This document shows, in pieces, positions 25,944 through 31,412 of a stretch of DNA of 48,180 bases. The position numbers and the translations under genes were made by a program. The notes below the pieces were generated by a model. It was not told where the DNA came from. It did no database searches and worked only from the letters and a program-made list of their open reading frames with translations. Source of the DNA: Fidelibacterota bacterium (GTDB lineage: Bacteria > Fidelibacterota > Marinisomatia > Marinisomatales > Marinisomataceae). The stretch is taken from positions 1 through 48,180 of the forward strand of contig JAFMFP010000003.1 in NCBI GenBank assembly GCA_017856055.1, written 5' to 3'. Position 1 is the stretch's first letter, and each line of letters begins with the position of its first letter.

Positions 25944-26502
25944 TTTCGAAAAAATATTTATTGAAACTGAGGCATTAATGCGCGGACACTTTATTCTTTC
26001 TTCAGGGAAACATAGCGATACATATTTTCAATGCGCAAAAGTTTTACAATATCCAAAATATCTTAATCTTTTTGCCCAGGAACTTTATAAAAAATTTGAA
26101 AACTTGAATTTTGACAAAGTTATCTCTCCAGCTATTGGTGGTATTGTTTTAGGTACAGAAGTAGGAAGAAGGTTTGATAAAAGAACAATTTTCTGCGAAC
26201 GTGAGTCTGGGAAAATGAGTCTTCGAAGAGGTTTTTCAATTGAAAGGGGAGAAAAAATTTTGATAATTGAAGATGTGCTAAGTACTGGAGGGTCTATTCA
26301 GGAAGTAATAAAGTTGATAAATTCTATAGGAGGTGAGGTCGTTGGAATAGGAGTTATCGTCGATAGATCTTTAATGCCAATCCATCTTCATGAGAACTTT
26401 CAATCGCTTTGCAAACTGAAAGCGCAAATTTTTGAAAAAGAGAATATTCCCAACTCTTTGAGAAACATTGCCCCAATTAAGCCTGGAACTAATAAAAAAT
26501 AA
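25933..26502 (+). CDS. pyrE: orotate phosphoribosyltransferase; track start 25924
   Basis: 'GHFILSSGKHSDTYFQCAKVLQYP', PRPP motif 'ILIIEDVLSTGGSIQEVI'. Confidence 0.95.
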   Translation: MKIDFEKIFIETEALMRGHFILSSGKHSDTYFQCAKVLQYPKYLNLFAQELYKKFENLNFDKVISPAIGGIVLGTEVGRRFDKRTIFCERESGKMSLRRGFSIERGEKILIIEDVLSTGGSIQEVIKLINSIGGEVVGIGVIVDRSLMPIHLHENFQSLCKLKAQIFEKENIPNSLRNIAPIKPGTNKK

Positions 26503-26553
26503 AAAAATGGGAACTCTTTTTTAAAAAATAGTTTAAAATTAAAGCGGTATTTT

Positions 26554-26988
26554 ATGAAATTTTTTAGATATATATTTTTTATCCTTCTATGTATTCCTCT
26601 CTTTGCCAATGAATGGGTTTACGATTTTGAAGAAGCTAAAAAAATTGCATTGGAGGATGATAAACTTATTGTTTTAGTCTTTCAAGGTTCAGACTGGTGC
26701 TCTCCTTGTATTAAACTTGATAGAGAAATATGGAATAATAATGAATTTAAAAAGATTGCAAGTGAAAATTTTGTGATGTTATTAGCTGATTTTCCAAGAA
26801 AAAAATCTAATGCTCTAAGTCAAATCCAGAAAGAAAAAAACTATTTGCTAGCTGAAAAATATAATCCAAATGGATTCTTTCCATTTGTAGTGATATTTAA
26901 TTCTTACGGTGAAGTTATTGGACAAACTGGCTATGAAAAAATATCTCCTCAGGAGTATGCAAATAAGATTTTAAAATTTAAAATATGA
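26554..26988 (+). CDS. secreted thioredoxin-family protein (CSPC)
   Basis: Signal peptide; 'VLVFQGSDWCSPCIKLDREIW'; ATGA overlap with the following apbE-like gene. Confidence 0.9.
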   Translation: MKFFRYIFFILLCIPLFANEWVYDFEEAKKIALEDDKLIVLVFQGSDWCSPCIKLDREIWNNNEFKKIASENFVMLLADFPRKKSNALSQIQKEKNYLLAEKYNPNGFFPFVVIFNSYGEVIGQTGYEKISPQEYANKILKFKI

Positions 26989-28163
26989 TTAAAAAATTAT
27001 TTCTTTTTTTAACGGTAATCAGTTTCAACTTTGCACAAGAGATTGTTAAAGATACTGCTTTACTCATGGGAAGTAGATTTGATTTTACAGTTGTGTCAGA
27101 TTCCAAATCTGAAGGTCAAAAGTTTATTAGCATGGCTATTGATGAGATTAGTCGTATTGAAAAGCTTATTTCTTCATGGGATATTAATTCTCAAACTTCT
27201 CAAATTAATAGAATGGCGGGAATAGAACCCGTTATTGTAGACAAGGAATTATTCTACTTAATTCAAAGAAGCAAAAAGATTTCTGAGCTAACGAATGGAC
27301 TTTATGATATTAGTTATGCATCTCTTGATCAGATTTGGAAATTTGATGGTAGCATTACCACACTCCCTTCAGAAGATGTTTTAAAAAAATCTATATCTAA
27401 AATCAATTATGAAGATATCATACTTGATGATAAAAACTATAGCGTTTTTCTCAAAAATGAAGGTATGAAAATTGGATTTGGTTCTATCGGAAAGGGATAT
27501 GCTGCTGATAAAGCAAAAGAATTGTTAATTCAAAATGGCGTTCAATCTGGGATAATCAATGCCTCAGGCGATATCGCTGCTTGGGGACATCAGCTCAATG
27601 GTGAAGAATGGCTTATTGCAATCAAAAATCCTTTCAATAAAAATAAAATTTTTTCATGGCTTCCTATTGAAAACAAATCAATCGTTACCTCAGGTGATTA
27701 TGAAAAATTTATTATGATAGAAGGTGAGAGATTTTCTCACATTATCAATCCTAAAACTGGGTATCCCGTCAAAGGTTTAACAAGTGTAAGTGTCATAGCT
27801 CCAACAGCAGAGATTGGAGATGCTTTAGCTACAGCAGTTTTTATATTAGGTAAAAACGATGGTCTGAAATTAATTAATTCATTGCCTGAAATAGAATGTT
27901 TAATAGTTGATTCGGATGGAGAATTTTATCCCTCAGATAATTTAGCTTTCAAAAAAGATAGTAATAACTATAAAAATTTGAAAAAATCTTTGTCAAAAAC
28001 ACTAACTAGGGTTAAAGAATATGAAAAAGTCTACATTAATGATCCTGATATGGATTTGAATCCTAGAAAAGTGAATAAATTTGAAACTAATTTTCAGGTT
28101 TATAGAGAATCAGCTTCTGGCGCTAATGGGGGAAAATCAGGAGGTGGGTGTGGTTGCAATTAA
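26985..28163 (+). CDS. apbE: ApbE-family FAD:protein FMN transferase with C-terminal DUF4266-like domain (fusion)
   Basis: ApbE signatures 'IGFGSIGKGYAADKAKELL', 'GIINASGDIAAWG', 'VTSGDYEKFIMIEGERFSHIINPKTGYPVKGL', 'IGDALATAVFILG'; residues 342-392 'RVKEYEKVYINDPDMDLNPRKVNKFETNFQVYRESASGANGGKSGGGCGCN' resemble DUF4266. Confidence 0.93.
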   Translation: MIKKLFLFLTVISFNFAQEIVKDTALLMGSRFDFTVVSDSKSEGQKFISMAIDEISRIEKLISSWDINSQTSQINRMAGIEPVIVDKELFYLIQRSKKISELTNGLYDISYASLDQIWKFDGSITTLPSEDVLKKSISKINYEDIILDDKNYSVFLKNEGMKIGFGSIGKGYAADKAKELLIQNGVQSGIINASGDIAAWGHQLNGEEWLIAIKNPFNKNKIFSWLPIENKSIVTSGDYEKFIMIEGERFSHIINPKTGYPVKGLTSVSVIAPTAEIGDALATAVFILGKNDGLKLINSLPEIECLIVDSDGEFYPSDNLAFKKDSNNYKNLKKSLSKTLTRVKEYEKVYINDPDMDLNPRKVNKFETNFQVYRESASGANGGKSGGGCGCN

Positions 28164-29610
28164 TCGCCTACTAACTTCAAATTTTATAATCATTTTTTTT
28201 CTTGTAGGATTAAATGGTCAAAATAATGATTCAGTTTTTAAGAAGAATGTACTAGATAATCCTGAAGTAAGTTTTTTAACTAGTTATTATAGCCAAGATG
28301 GTGATCATGCTTCAGTAACTGGAGGAATTGGTACAGAAAAACTAACAGATTTTACTCCAACAGTTATTATAACTATGCCACTTAATCCCGATGAAGTTTT
28401 GACATTTGAAGTTGGAATTTCGGCGTATTCTTCAGCATCCTCAAGCAATGGAAATCCTTTTGATATATCTGGTTCATCTGCTGGCTATGATGATGATGAT
28501 GACTATGATGATGATAATGAAAATTATACTGGTGGTGGTCAAAAAATTGGAACTCCCTGGATAGAATCATCTGGTGCGTCTGCTAGCGATATTTGGTCAA
28601 CTATTGTTGTAGATCATTCAAAATATTCTGAAGACAGAAATCAAATAACTAATAAGAATTTTTCAATTGCTAATGAGTACGATTATAACTCAATAGGTTT
28701 TGGCGGGGGAATCACTAAGCTATATAATCAGAAAAATACTTCTTTATCTTTTGCAGGAAAAATTTTTATTGATAAATGGAATCCGGTATATCCTACTGAA
28801 TTAAAAGCCTATTCTGATGAAAAAGGAGATTTAACTAATGGATATTTTTCTGGTGTAGATATTTTAGATTCTACAGGTCAAAAGTCTACGAACTGGGCTC
28901 CCAAAAATAATTTTAATCTTATTGAAAATGAATGGAGAAACTCATATTCAATTTCATTAAGTGGAAGTCAGATTGTCAATGAGAAATTTCAATTTTCACT
29001 TTTTATGGACCTAGTTTATCAAAAAGGTTGGTTAGCTAACCCTCTACAAAGAGTATACTTTTCTGATATTGATAATTATTACATAGGTAATAGTGAAAAT
29101 ATTATTAACTATACTTCCAAATCTAATACAGATGTGTTTCAATTAGCTGATGATATTGAGCGATTACCTTCTTCACGATTTAAATCTCCCTTTGGATTTC
29201 AATCAAGTTATTACATCAATGAAAAACTTGTTTTTAAAAACTATTTTAGAAGATATCAGGACGATTGGGGTATTACCTCCAATACATATAATGTCGATCT
29301 TCCCATTAAATTAAATGAAAGCTTCACTATATACCCTGCCTATCGAAAATATACTCAAACCAAATCTGATTTTTTTGCTCCTTATGAATCGCATTTATCT
29401 ACTAGCCAATTTTACACCTCTGATTATGATTTATCAGAGTTTTCATCTGAACAATTTTCATTTGGAGTAGGTTATACTGATATTTTTACCAATAGAAAAT
29501 TATTTAACTTAGGTTTAAAGAGTGTAAACCTGAATTTCAGTAATTATATAAGAAGTGATGGTTTAGATGCTTCAATCTTTTCTATTTCTTTTGATTTTGA
29601 GGTGAACTAA
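28144..29610 (+). CDS. DUF3570-like outer-membrane-type beta protein; track start 28081, actual start probably GTG at 28144 or 28150
   Basis: Signal peptide (..SNFIIIFFLVGLNG|Q); 'VFKNYFRRYQDDWGITSNTYNVDLPIKLNESFTIYPAYRKYTQTKSDFFAPY...YTSDYDLSEFSSEQFSFGVGY' resembles the DUF3570 C-terminal pattern. Confidence 0.8.
   Translation: MGVVAINRLLTSNFIIIFFLVGLNGQNNDSVFKKNVLDNPEVSFLTSYYSQDGDHASVTGGIGTEKLTDFTPTVIITMPLNPDEVLTFEVGISAYSSASSSNGNPFDISGSSAGYDDDDDYDDDNENYTGGGQKIGTPWIESSGASASDIWSTIVVDHSKYSEDRNQITNKNFSIANEYDYNSIGFGGGITKLYNQKNTSLSFAGKIFIDKWNPVYPTELKAYSDEKGDLTNGYFSGVDILDSTGQKSTNWAPKNNFNLIENEWRNSYSISLSGSQIVNEKFQFSLFMDLVYQKGWLANPLQRVYFSDIDNYYIGNSENIINYTSKSNTDVFQLADDIERLPSSRFKSPFGFQSSYYINEKLVFKNYFRRYQDDWGITSNTYNVDLPIKLNESFTIYPAYRKYTQTKSDFFAPYESHLSTSQFYTSDYDLSEFSSEQFSFGVGYTDIFTNRKLFNLGLKSVNLNFSNYIRSDGLDASIFSISFDFEVN
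28489..28518 (+). repeat. GAT-rich trinucleotide tract encoding DDDDDYDDDN
   Basis: (GAT)4 GAC TAT (GAT)3 AAT read directly. Confidence 0.9.
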
Positions 29611-31412
29611 TGATAAAAAAAATATTTTATTCTCTGTTATTTTTAACTACTGCCTTTTCTCAATTCAGAGAACCTATCAATATTAACTTTTCTTATAATG
29701 ATAATATTACTTTAGGCGAAGTTGTTGAATTAGAAATAAATATCAGTCTTGAGGAAGGTTGGAAAATATATGCTGTATATGGTGTTGTTGGAGGACCCAC
29801 TCCTTCGAGTATTTCCGTAGATAGTCCTTTCATTGACAAAATTGGAAAAGTAATAGAGCCAATTCCTATCAAGGATTTTGATGAAGGTTTTCAAGTAGAG
29901 ACAAAATTTCATAAAGGTACATTTACTATGATTGTGCCAATTCAAATGTCTTCAAATATTTCCATTGGAGATCAGATCAGCTTTTTCCCTGAATTTGAGT
30001 ACCAAGTTTGCAATGAAACGATTTGTTATCCGCCTAATATTTTTTCTGAAGAGGTAATAATAAGCGTTATAAATGGAAATCCTAACCCTGCAAAACTTAT
30101 TTCGAATTTTGATTTTGATTCAGATTCTATTTTAAATATTGTGGATAATAATATTTTGTCTTTTCTAATTCTTGCGTTGAGTATGGGATTTTTGGCGTTA
30201 TTAACTCCATGCGTTTTTCCGATGGTTCCAATTACTATTTCCTATTTTACTCATAGGGCAGAGCATACCAATCAATCTGCAATAAAAGATGCTACGGTCT
30301 ATATGTTCGGAATTATAGGAACATTTACAGTTCTTGGAATGTTACTCGCAATTATTTTAGGTGCTTCTGGAGCAAATCAAATTGCAGCTAATCCCTATGT
30401 AAATATTTTTATAGCAGCTTTGTTTATTTATTTTTCTTTTTCTTTATTCGGATTTTATGAAATCGAGATACCTGAGAGCTTAAGAAGATTCTCATTACAG
30501 AAAGAAAGCTCTAAAGGCTATTTAGGAATCTTATTTATGGCATTAACATTTACCTTAACTTCTTTTACTTGTACCGTGCAATTTATGGGGCTGATTCTTG
30601 TCGCTGCTTCTCAAGGAGAATGGTTTTGGCCCATTATTGGAATGTTAGTTTTTAGTACTGCTTTTGCATCTCCTTTTTTCTTTTTAGCATTATTTCCAAA
30701 ATATCTAACTCAATTGCCCCAATCTGGAAGTTGGCTCAATAATGTGAAGGTTGTCATGGGTTTTCTAGAATTAGCTGCAGCATTTAAATTTATAAGCAAT
30801 TCTGACTTAGTATGGAATTGGAATATTTTTTCATATGACGTAGTTCTCTTTCTTTGGTCTGTACTTATGTTATTGACTGCAGTTTATTTATTCGGACTAA
30901 TAAGATTTAGACACGATTCCATTCAACCTCTAACTAGTAAAAAAGCTTTGATTGCATCAGTATTTTTAATTTTTTCACTGTATTTGTTCTCGGGTAATTT
31001 GGGATACTCCATTAATGGAACAATTCAATCATATTTACCTCCGAAAAAAGCAAGTTCGAATTTATTATGGGTAAATACCCTTGATGAAGGATTTCAAAAA
31101 GCTCAAGAAGAAAACAAAAATATTTTTATTGATTTTACAGGGGTAACCTGCACCAATTGTCGATGGATGGAAACCAATATTTTTACGATTAATTCAATTG
31201 AAGAAAAATTACAAAAATACGTTTTAGTCAGTTTATATACAGATTCAGGAAAAGATTTTAATCAAAAGAGACAATACCAAATAGAGCGATTTAAAACTGC
31301 AGCCCTTCCTTTTTATGTAATCCTTGATCCTAATGATAATATTATTGATACTTTCCCTGGATTGACTAGAGATAAAAAAGAATTTGAGTCTTTTTTAGAT
31401 AAAGGATTATAA
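29610..31412 (+). CDS. dsbD: thiol:disulfide interchange protein DsbD
   Basis: N-terminal domain Cys pair 'VCNETICYPP'; TM Cys 'LLTPCVFPMVPITISYF' and 'TSFTCTVQFMGLILVAA'; C-terminal thioredoxin domain 'FTGVTCTNCRWME'. Confidence 0.95.
   Translation: MIKKIFYSLLFLTTAFSQFREPININFSYNDNITLGEVVELEINISLEEGWKIYAVYGVVGGPTPSSISVDSPFIDKIGKVIEPIPIKDFDEGFQVETKFHKGTFTMIVPIQMSSNISIGDQISFFPEFEYQVCNETICYPPNIFSEEVIISVINGNPNPAKLISNFDFDSDSILNIVDNNILSFLILALSMGFLALLTPCVFPMVPITISYFTHRAEHTNQSAIKDATVYMFGIIGTFTVLGMLLAIILGASGANQIAANPYVNIFIAALFIYFSFSLFGFYEIEIPESLRRFSLQKESSKGYLGILFMALTFTLTSFTCTVQFMGLILVAASQGEWFWPIIGMLVFSTAFASPFFFLALFPKYLTQLPQSGSWLNNVKVVMGFLELAAAFKFISNSDLVWNWNIFSYDVVLFLWSVLMLLTAVYLFGLIRFRHDSIQPLTSKKALIASVFLIFSLYLFSGNLGYSINGTIQSYLPPKKASSNLLWVNTLDEGFQKAQEENKNIFIDFTGVTCTNCRWMETNIFTINSIEEKLQKYVLVSLYTDSGKDFNQKRQYQIERFKTAALPFYVILDPNDNIIDTFPGLTRDKKEFESFLDKGL

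Follow-up and report, generated by a model that had tools for sequence, protein, structure and literature searches.

The window analysed here, 48,180 nucleotides of a Fidelibacterota bacterium genome (GenBank assembly GCA_017856055.1, contig JAFMFP010000003.1, positions 1 to 48,180), contains a block of four genes that encode a secreted thioredoxin-like protein (hereafter Trx), ApbE fused in frame to a DUF4266 domain, a DUF3570 protein, and DsbD. This locus is a real and well-supported member of a published system, the DsbD-type flavinylation system, with a fused architecture that is new and a natural history that is unusually clear. Judging from sequence comparison, Trx, ApbE-DUF4266 and DUF3570 probably comprise a cassette of Bacteroidota, perhaps marine Bacteroidota, origin that lies in front of a resident dsbD gene. 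The reading that we favor, while holding it with evenly divided confidence, is that of a horizontally acquired DsbD-type flavinylation system in which electrons would pass from DsbD to Trx, then to the Cys-Gly-Cys (CGC) motif of DUF4266, then to flavin mononucleotide (FMN) on DUF3570 and, finally, to an acceptor outside the cell.

The system was described by Meheust et al. (2021, eLife 10:e66878, PMC8238504) as clusters of ApbE with DUF3570, a PF13899 thioredoxin and DUF4266, with VIT1 neighbours in 25 clusters. The DUF3570 protein of Chlorobium luteolum was shown experimentally to be flavinylated by its ApbE on two [ST]GA[ST] motifs; furthermore, it was suggested that DsbD supplies a hybrid thioredoxin/flavin system and that the CXC motif of DUF4266 undergoes redox cycling (PMC8238504). 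Among the papers covered by a full-text search, none other than this one mentioned DUF3570 or DUF4266. The locus in the window shares with the published system the clustering of ApbE, DUF3570, a PF13899 thioredoxin-like protein, DUF4266 with a CXC tail, and DsbD; under the published criterion, dsbD lies within five genes of the cassette, and here it is adjacent. The differences are that DUF4266 is carried by ApbE and lacks a lipid anchor, that an acquired cassette precedes a resident dsbD, and that the first presumed FMN site is SSAS. An earlier, sequence-only reading of this DNA had stated that the Trx/ApbE/DUF4266/DUF3570 neighbourhood is recurrent and had proposed a DsbD-fed extracytoplasmic flavin/thiol module; both points hold, whereas the link to DsbD, offered as a mechanistic hint, had already been proposed (PMC8238504).

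Gene structure and the ApbE-DUF4266 fusion

Analysis of the open reading frames agreed with the sequence-only reading on the places and overlaps of the four genes, and the overlapping frames confirm the operon-like coupling that it had postulated (Table 1). The Trx and ApbE frames overlap by ATGA at 26985; the DUF3570 frame starts within the codons of the DUF4266 tail, either at GTG 28144, with a 20-nucleotide overlap (28144-28163), or at GTG 28150, and AGGAGGT at 28139-28145 makes a good ribosome-binding site for it; the DUF3570 stop and the dsbD start overlap in TAATG at 29608-29612. The block is flanked by pyrF and pyrE upstream and by degP and ileS downstream.

The earlier assignments of DUF4266, DUF3570, ApbE and DsbD are borne out by Pfam matches, which exceed the curated cut-offs for all four proteins: Thioredoxin_7 (PF13899, E 2.9e-14, CSPC) in Trx; ApbE (PF02424, E 1.4e-80, residues 28-307) and DUF4266 (E 4.1e-18, residues 343-392) in the fused protein; PF12094 (E 5.1e-29) in DUF3570; and DsbD_N (E 7e-9), DsbD_TM (PF02683, E 1.4e-25) and Thioredoxin_7 (E 5e-12) in DsbD. 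A genome-wide search retrieved DUF4266 (PF14086) with E 1.9e-19. The solved structure nearest to Trx is that of Chlamydia DsbH (PDB 2ju5, E 1.2e-15), which shares with it the thioredoxin fold, secretion and a probable reductase role but, unlike Trx, is not linked to ApbE or DUF3570. With 84.2 bits against the DsbH profile NF043050, below the curated cut-off of 190 bits, Trx is DsbH-like only.

The ApbE frame, 393 residues long, runs without a stop into DUF4266, which constitutes a new architecture within a published system. In all 35 related cassettes, DUF4266 stands as a protein of its own, some 70 residues long, and these separate proteins nearly always carry a visible lipoprotein signal (...SSC-VAVKEYEK...). 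In the fusion, both the signal peptide and the lipid-anchor cysteine of DUF4266 are lost, with the polar linker NYKNLKKSLSKTLTRVKEYEK found instead; such replacement of a hydrophobic signal and lipobox identifies the protein as a clean fusion rather than the product of an overlooked stop codon. The N-terminus of the ApbE part, MIKKLFLFLTVISFNFAQ, reads by eye as a signal peptide. Searches of this genome and of genomes of the phylum found a 393-residue DUF4266 frame only in the window's genome, and 396 genomes surveyed with a Bacteroidota genome as the entry point (142 DUF4266 matches in 114 genomes) included no DUF4266 frame of fusion length, the longest one, of 210 residues, being too short to accommodate ApbE. 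The CGCN tail is invariant to the last residue in 37 of 37 DUF4266 sequences; the C-terminal CXC is retained here, but in a domain of ApbE and not in a small secreted protein of its own. The sequence-only reading had recorded that ApbE ends in GGGCGCN, which is correct, but overlooked the fusion as the unusual feature. The tail cysteines are specified by ordinary TGT/TGC codons, for which reason a selenocysteine reading of the tail was set aside. Flavinylation of DUF4266 itself, on the SGAN/GGK[ST]G tail, was rejected because asparagine cannot accept FMN and the Ser/Thr is not conserved.

One interpretation of the fusion is that the tail acts on the substrate of ApbE, which fits the electron relay and, equally, an alternative in which DUF4266 is a maturation factor of ApbE, its tail docking on DUF3570 or keeping ApbE or its substrate thiol-competent; under the latter, a fusion would be natural. 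DUF4266 could be either an electron carrier or an ApbE helper. The helper alternative, possible although rather unlikely in our estimate, gains from ApbE being the sole fusion partner seen for DUF4266, from the loss of the lipid anchor upon fusion, and from the fusion of Trx to ApbE in G180, a genome of the same class, which makes ApbE the hub of both fusions. However, neighbouring genes fuse readily regardless of their roles; the aligned ApbE domains contain no conserved cysteine, so that the need for a thiol is not evident; and the suggested redox cycling of the CXC motif (PMC8238504) argues for a carrier.

Table 1. Coordinates of the features discussed, in window positions
Feature	Position	Strand	Details
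Secreted Trx-like protein	26554-26988	+	144 aa, signal peptide, active site SDWCSPCIKLD; Thioredoxin_7, DsbH-like
ApbE-DUF4266 in-frame fusion	26985-28163	+	Type I signal peptide, C-terminus GGGCGCN, no lipobox before the DUF4266 part
DUF4266 domain	28011-28160	+	PF14086, Gly-rich C-terminal CGCN tail
DUF3570 outer-membrane beta-barrel, expected ApbE substrate	28144-29610 (start GTG 28144 or 28150)	+	PF12094, AlphaFold2, Foldseek
Presumed FMN site 1, SSAS, acceptor Ser97	28429-28440	+	End of strand 3; position of the first SGAS in distant DUF3570s
Presumed FMN site 2, SGAS, acceptor Ser144	28570-28581	+	Just before strand 4
DsbD, resident gene	29610-31412	+	600 aa, six redox cysteines; same-locus orthologue in congeners
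Tract diverging from the closest relative, G043	26310-30150	.	Edges 67-80% identical vs ~93-100% outside; includes the ends of pyrE and dsbD, with the cassette inside

Origin of the cassette and its insertion site

We collected 38 loci with the ApbE-DUF4266 protein as the query, the peptide seeds being mostly within ApbE. In 35 of these, DUF4266 and DUF3570 adjoin ApbE in the same order, and Trx precedes in 33 of the 35, the other two beginning at contig ends; thus, the association, for which the sequence-only reading had suggested a co-occurrence check, is far above chance. In the window's genome, DUF4266 and DUF3570 are present in one copy each, and neither was detected in the 23 congeners searched, so that DUF3570 occurs in 1 of 24 genomes of the genus. 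DUF4266 is found in 2 of 245 genomes of the phylum, the only other one being G180. The window's genome has two ApbE genes, compared with one per congener (none was found in three congeners). The resident ApbE closes an nqrABCDEF-apbE operon that includes the FMN_bind protein NqrC, which implies that the cassette brought its own ApbE. The resident operon (G000:C30, L092) is followed by an NhaD-like antiporter; here, all annotation other than that of ApbE and FMN_bind is by eye.

The nearest relatives of all cassette proteins come from Flavobacteriaceae, with 58% identity for ApbE and DUF3570, 53-56% for Trx and 77-86% for DUF4266. In particular, the cassettes of Lacinutrix himadriensis (L045) and Oceanihabitans (L082) have the same order as the window and show 58% identity in ApbE and DUF3570, as well as 86% (partial) and 77%, respectively, in DUF4266; unlike in the window, DUF4266 is a separate lipoprotein in both, and there is no dsbD within the fetched flanks. 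In a tree of four concatenated proteins, built without the native ApbE from a sample gathered with the window's own protein, the window falls in a clade of 35 rows that otherwise consists of Bacteroidota and G180, set apart with 100/100 support from Marinifilum plus a Saprospiraceae row; its position inside the clade is not resolved, and a single-gene ApbE tree was too weak for placement. G180 (L091) encodes all three cassette proteins, but with Trx fused to ApbE (L091:8731-10098), DUF4266 separate and no adjacent dsbD; it nests apart from the window with 98/95 support, and a joint clade is rejected (approximately unbiased test, p-AU 0.01). Two separate acquisitions from Bacteroidota are the simplest reading of these relationships. 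GC content and codon use do not flag the cassette as foreign because donor and host are both AT-rich, and the case for transfer is therefore built on distribution, synteny and the tree.

The insertion site can be traced in relatives. Congeners with drawn maps have the order pyrF-pyrE-patatin-dsbD-degP-ileS, and the closest relative, G043, is cassette-free, with the order pyrF-pyrE-dsbD-degP and 22 bases between pyrE and dsbD. The sequence-only reading was right on the adjacency of dsbD but overlooked that a foreign cassette precedes a resident gene. The flanks are mostly 93-100% identical to G043, whereas identity falls to 67-70% over the terminal 190 bases of pyrE and to about 75% over the initial 500 bases of dsbD, with sharp edges at 26310-26502 (in pyrE) and 29610-30150 (in dsbD). 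DsbD consists of three domains recognized by Pfam, nDsbD, the transmembrane domain and a C-terminal thioredoxin domain, with cysteine pairs 134/139, 201/321 and 514/517; compared with G043, the transmembrane domain is 98% and the C-terminal domain 97% identical, but nDsbD only 64%. This is an outlier: in eleven other pairs from the genus with transmembrane-domain identity of at least 90%, nDsbD is 82-96% identical. Such a pattern is the trace expected of replacement by homologous recombination from a more distant relative, with either the window or G043 as the putative recombinant. Partners of DsbD receive their electrons from nDsbD, which makes it attractive, although unproven, to suppose that a matched nDsbD was transferred along with the cassette.

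Could the cassette be independent of DsbD, its position merely the outcome of insertion at a variable spot in the operon? Such an account, which we judge doubtful but far from negligible, is favored by the 316 of the 543 published clusters that have no nearby dsbD, compared with 227 that do (PMC8238504), by the presence of dsbD near the cassette in only 3 of 35 Bacteroidota loci (L052, L063, L077), and by the fact that this spot already varies in the genus, with patatin present or absent. On the other side, Trx requires an electron source, for which DsbD is the standard one; the divergent tract takes in the N-terminal domain of DsbD; and, in a genome of about 850 genes, the two junctions that adjoin dsbD make up a very small fraction of the possible sites. 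With a single event to go on, this evidence is weak.

The predicted DUF3570 barrel and the proposed electron route

AlphaFold2 modeling with 32 sequences predicts a beta-barrel for DUF3570, with a mean predicted local distance difference test score (pLDDT) of 83 for the window's protein and 88 for the Lacinutrix relative. By our own count in the two models, the barrel has 16 strands, and the protein combines a signal peptide with an even strand number. In a Foldseek search, the model matched the outer-membrane barrels FadL and OmpG (E 7e-13 and 6e-11), with which it shares the barrel fold at 8-10% identity and a TM-score of about 0.4 by query length, values that do not imply a common function; a profile search of the PDB with DUF3570 gave chance matches only. 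Long connectors follow the odd strands (14, 49, 2, 51, 54, 4, 27 and 4 residues in the window; mean about 26) and short ones the even strands (2-13; mean about 6). Long connectors of outer-membrane barrels usually face outside, and this alternation would place the FMN loop on the extracellular side.

With residues numbered from GTG 28150, Ser95-Ala96-Ser97 and, likewise, Ser144 and Asp147 are invariant in the 32 aligned DUF3570 sequences. In the AlphaFold2 model, Ser97 lies two residues past strand 3 and Ser144 just ahead of strand 4, so that both presumed FMN serines would flank the base of a single loop, on the same rim and on what appears to be the extracellular side. Site 2 is a canonical SGAS; site 1 is SSAS in the window and in all aligned Bacteroidota relatives, and SGAS in distant DUF3570s. 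The sequence-only reading saw in DUF3570 the outer-membrane partner, but a mere partner of another flavoprotein it is not, DUF3570 being itself the flavinylated substrate (PMC8238504).

About one-third of the relatives (for example, L047, L052, L058, L064 and L074) contain an extra [ST]GAS between the two sites, where the window has a degenerate SGSS; in the long-loop variants, this motif might perhaps carry a third FMN. Runs of aspartates occur in this loop in about one-fourth of the sequences, including the window, but the overall enrichment in acidic residues is slight (13% vs 11%), which leaves a metal-binding loop between the FMN sites as no more than a hint. A search of plasmids found ordinary ApbEs and a few DUF3570s.

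In the favored relay, ApbE would attach FMN to the DUF3570 serines in the periplasm, as shown for the Chlorobium homologue, after which DUF3570 would insert into the outer membrane as a barrel, with the two modeled FMNs side by side on the outward rim. Resident DsbD would pass electrons from cytoplasmic thioredoxin to the DsbH-like Trx of the cassette; Trx would reduce the Cys-Gly-Cys at the end of DUF4266; the Gly-rich arm of DUF4266, flexible and borne in this genome by ApbE instead of a lipid anchor, would hand the electrons to the DUF3570 flavins; and these would reduce an extracellular acceptor, for which ferric iron or some other metal is the most plausible candidate. We counted in favor of this relay the gene order and co-occurrence in 35 of 38 loci, the retention of both FMN-site positions, the DUF3570 barrel with its long odd connectors, the invariant CGCN, the position of the cassette directly before dsbD and the nearby dsbD in L052, L063 and L077, the CxxC motif of Trx and its likeness to the reductase-type DsbH, and the six cysteines of DsbD. 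A precedent for CGC as a working dithiol comes from the study of the CXC motif by Woycechowsky and Raines (2003), as cited in PMC4316792. In seven loci (L047, L049, L054, L058, L063, L065 and L076; two families), the cassette is accompanied by neighbouring genes for a FecI-type sigma factor, a FecR and an STN/TonB-plug protein, as identified by Pfam in one locus and by homology in the rest. Iron as the acceptor is a guess prompted by these neighbours together with VIT1 in the published clusters (PMC8238504).

Several considerations weigh against this scheme. Site 1, SSAS, departs from the published [ST]GA[ST]; the side that the FMN loop faces depends on strand parity in a predicted model with low confidence in the loops; and the relay offers no account of how electrons in the periplasm would reach the outer rim. 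FecI/FecR/STN systems also serve nutrients other than iron, and we know of no member of the system with demonstrated electron transfer or a demonstrated acceptor. Furthermore, as pointed out above, dsbD is not adjacent in most of the known clusters. In a bolder version, which we consider unlikely, DUF3570 would be a flavin conduit across the outer membrane: the CGC arm, lipid-anchored or ApbE-borne, would enter the barrel from the periplasm and feed DsbD-derived electrons to two or three surface FMNs. Such a protein would be a heme-free, thiol-powered surface metal reductase encoded by a three-gene cassette that moves between phyla and can connect to whichever dsbD is resident.

Relays that lead from thiols through flavin to oxygen by way of shuttle dithiols are known, Ero1 and Erv being the examples, and the flow could run in reverse: periplasmic thiols would donate electrons, by way of the CGC tail, to the outer flavins and these to oxygen, in the manner of a sulfhydryl oxidase. 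This direction is quite improbable, given that Trx is of the reductase type (DsbH-like), that dsbD is adjacent, and that no DsbA-like gene accompanies the cassette in the fetched loci. An artefact of assembly or binning, conceivable for a metagenome-type assembly of 59 contigs with a single copy of the cassette and no second cassette-bearing strain found, is hardly credible: each of the two junctions falls within a single contig, and the conserved operon around them has native pyrF/pyrE at one end and dsbD/degP/ileS at the other; the cassette matches host codon use no worse than host genes do; and the DUF3570 frame overlaps that of its neighbour at either end.

Neighbours in related loci and implications

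Some of the related loci contain additional genes next to the cassette. A small lipoprotein is encoded directly before Trx in one Flavobacteriaceae group (L048, L051, L059, L061, L072, L075 and L078); Pfam detects a Rieske [2Fe-2S] domain in the L072 copy (L072:5015-5470), and the lipoprotein may be an additional redox partner of the cassette. In L063 (5164-5568) and L077 (2195-2680), a PepSY_like lipoprotein that contains long runs of aspartates is encoded between dsbD and Trx; in L063, a second Asp-rich PepSY_like protein is encoded nearby, and similar runs are present in the FMN loop of some DUF3570s. Flavobacterium frigoris has a second, tandem DUF4266-DUF3570 copy (L079:8779-10448). In eight Flavobacteriaceae loci (L067, L072 and related ones), pyrF lies one gene downstream of the cassette, and in the window, pyrF-pyrE is upstream, possibly a coincidence. 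Finally, loci L096-L125, from genomes sampled as members of the phylum of a Bacteroidota genome, contain DUF4266-DUF3570 pairs that look unlike those of Bacteroidota; in these short loci, no ApbE adjoins the pair where inspected, and at least L099 has a TlpA-like protein in front.

The function of DsbD/DUF3570/DUF4266 systems has been a standing question since 2021, and the locus described here offers three handles on it: a natural ApbE-DUF4266 fusion, which is a pointer to the site of action of the CGC tail; a pair of strains that differ in the presence of the cassette at a single site; and a structural model that puts the flavins on the outward rim of an outer-membrane barrel and would predict a heme-free route for electrons across the outer membrane.

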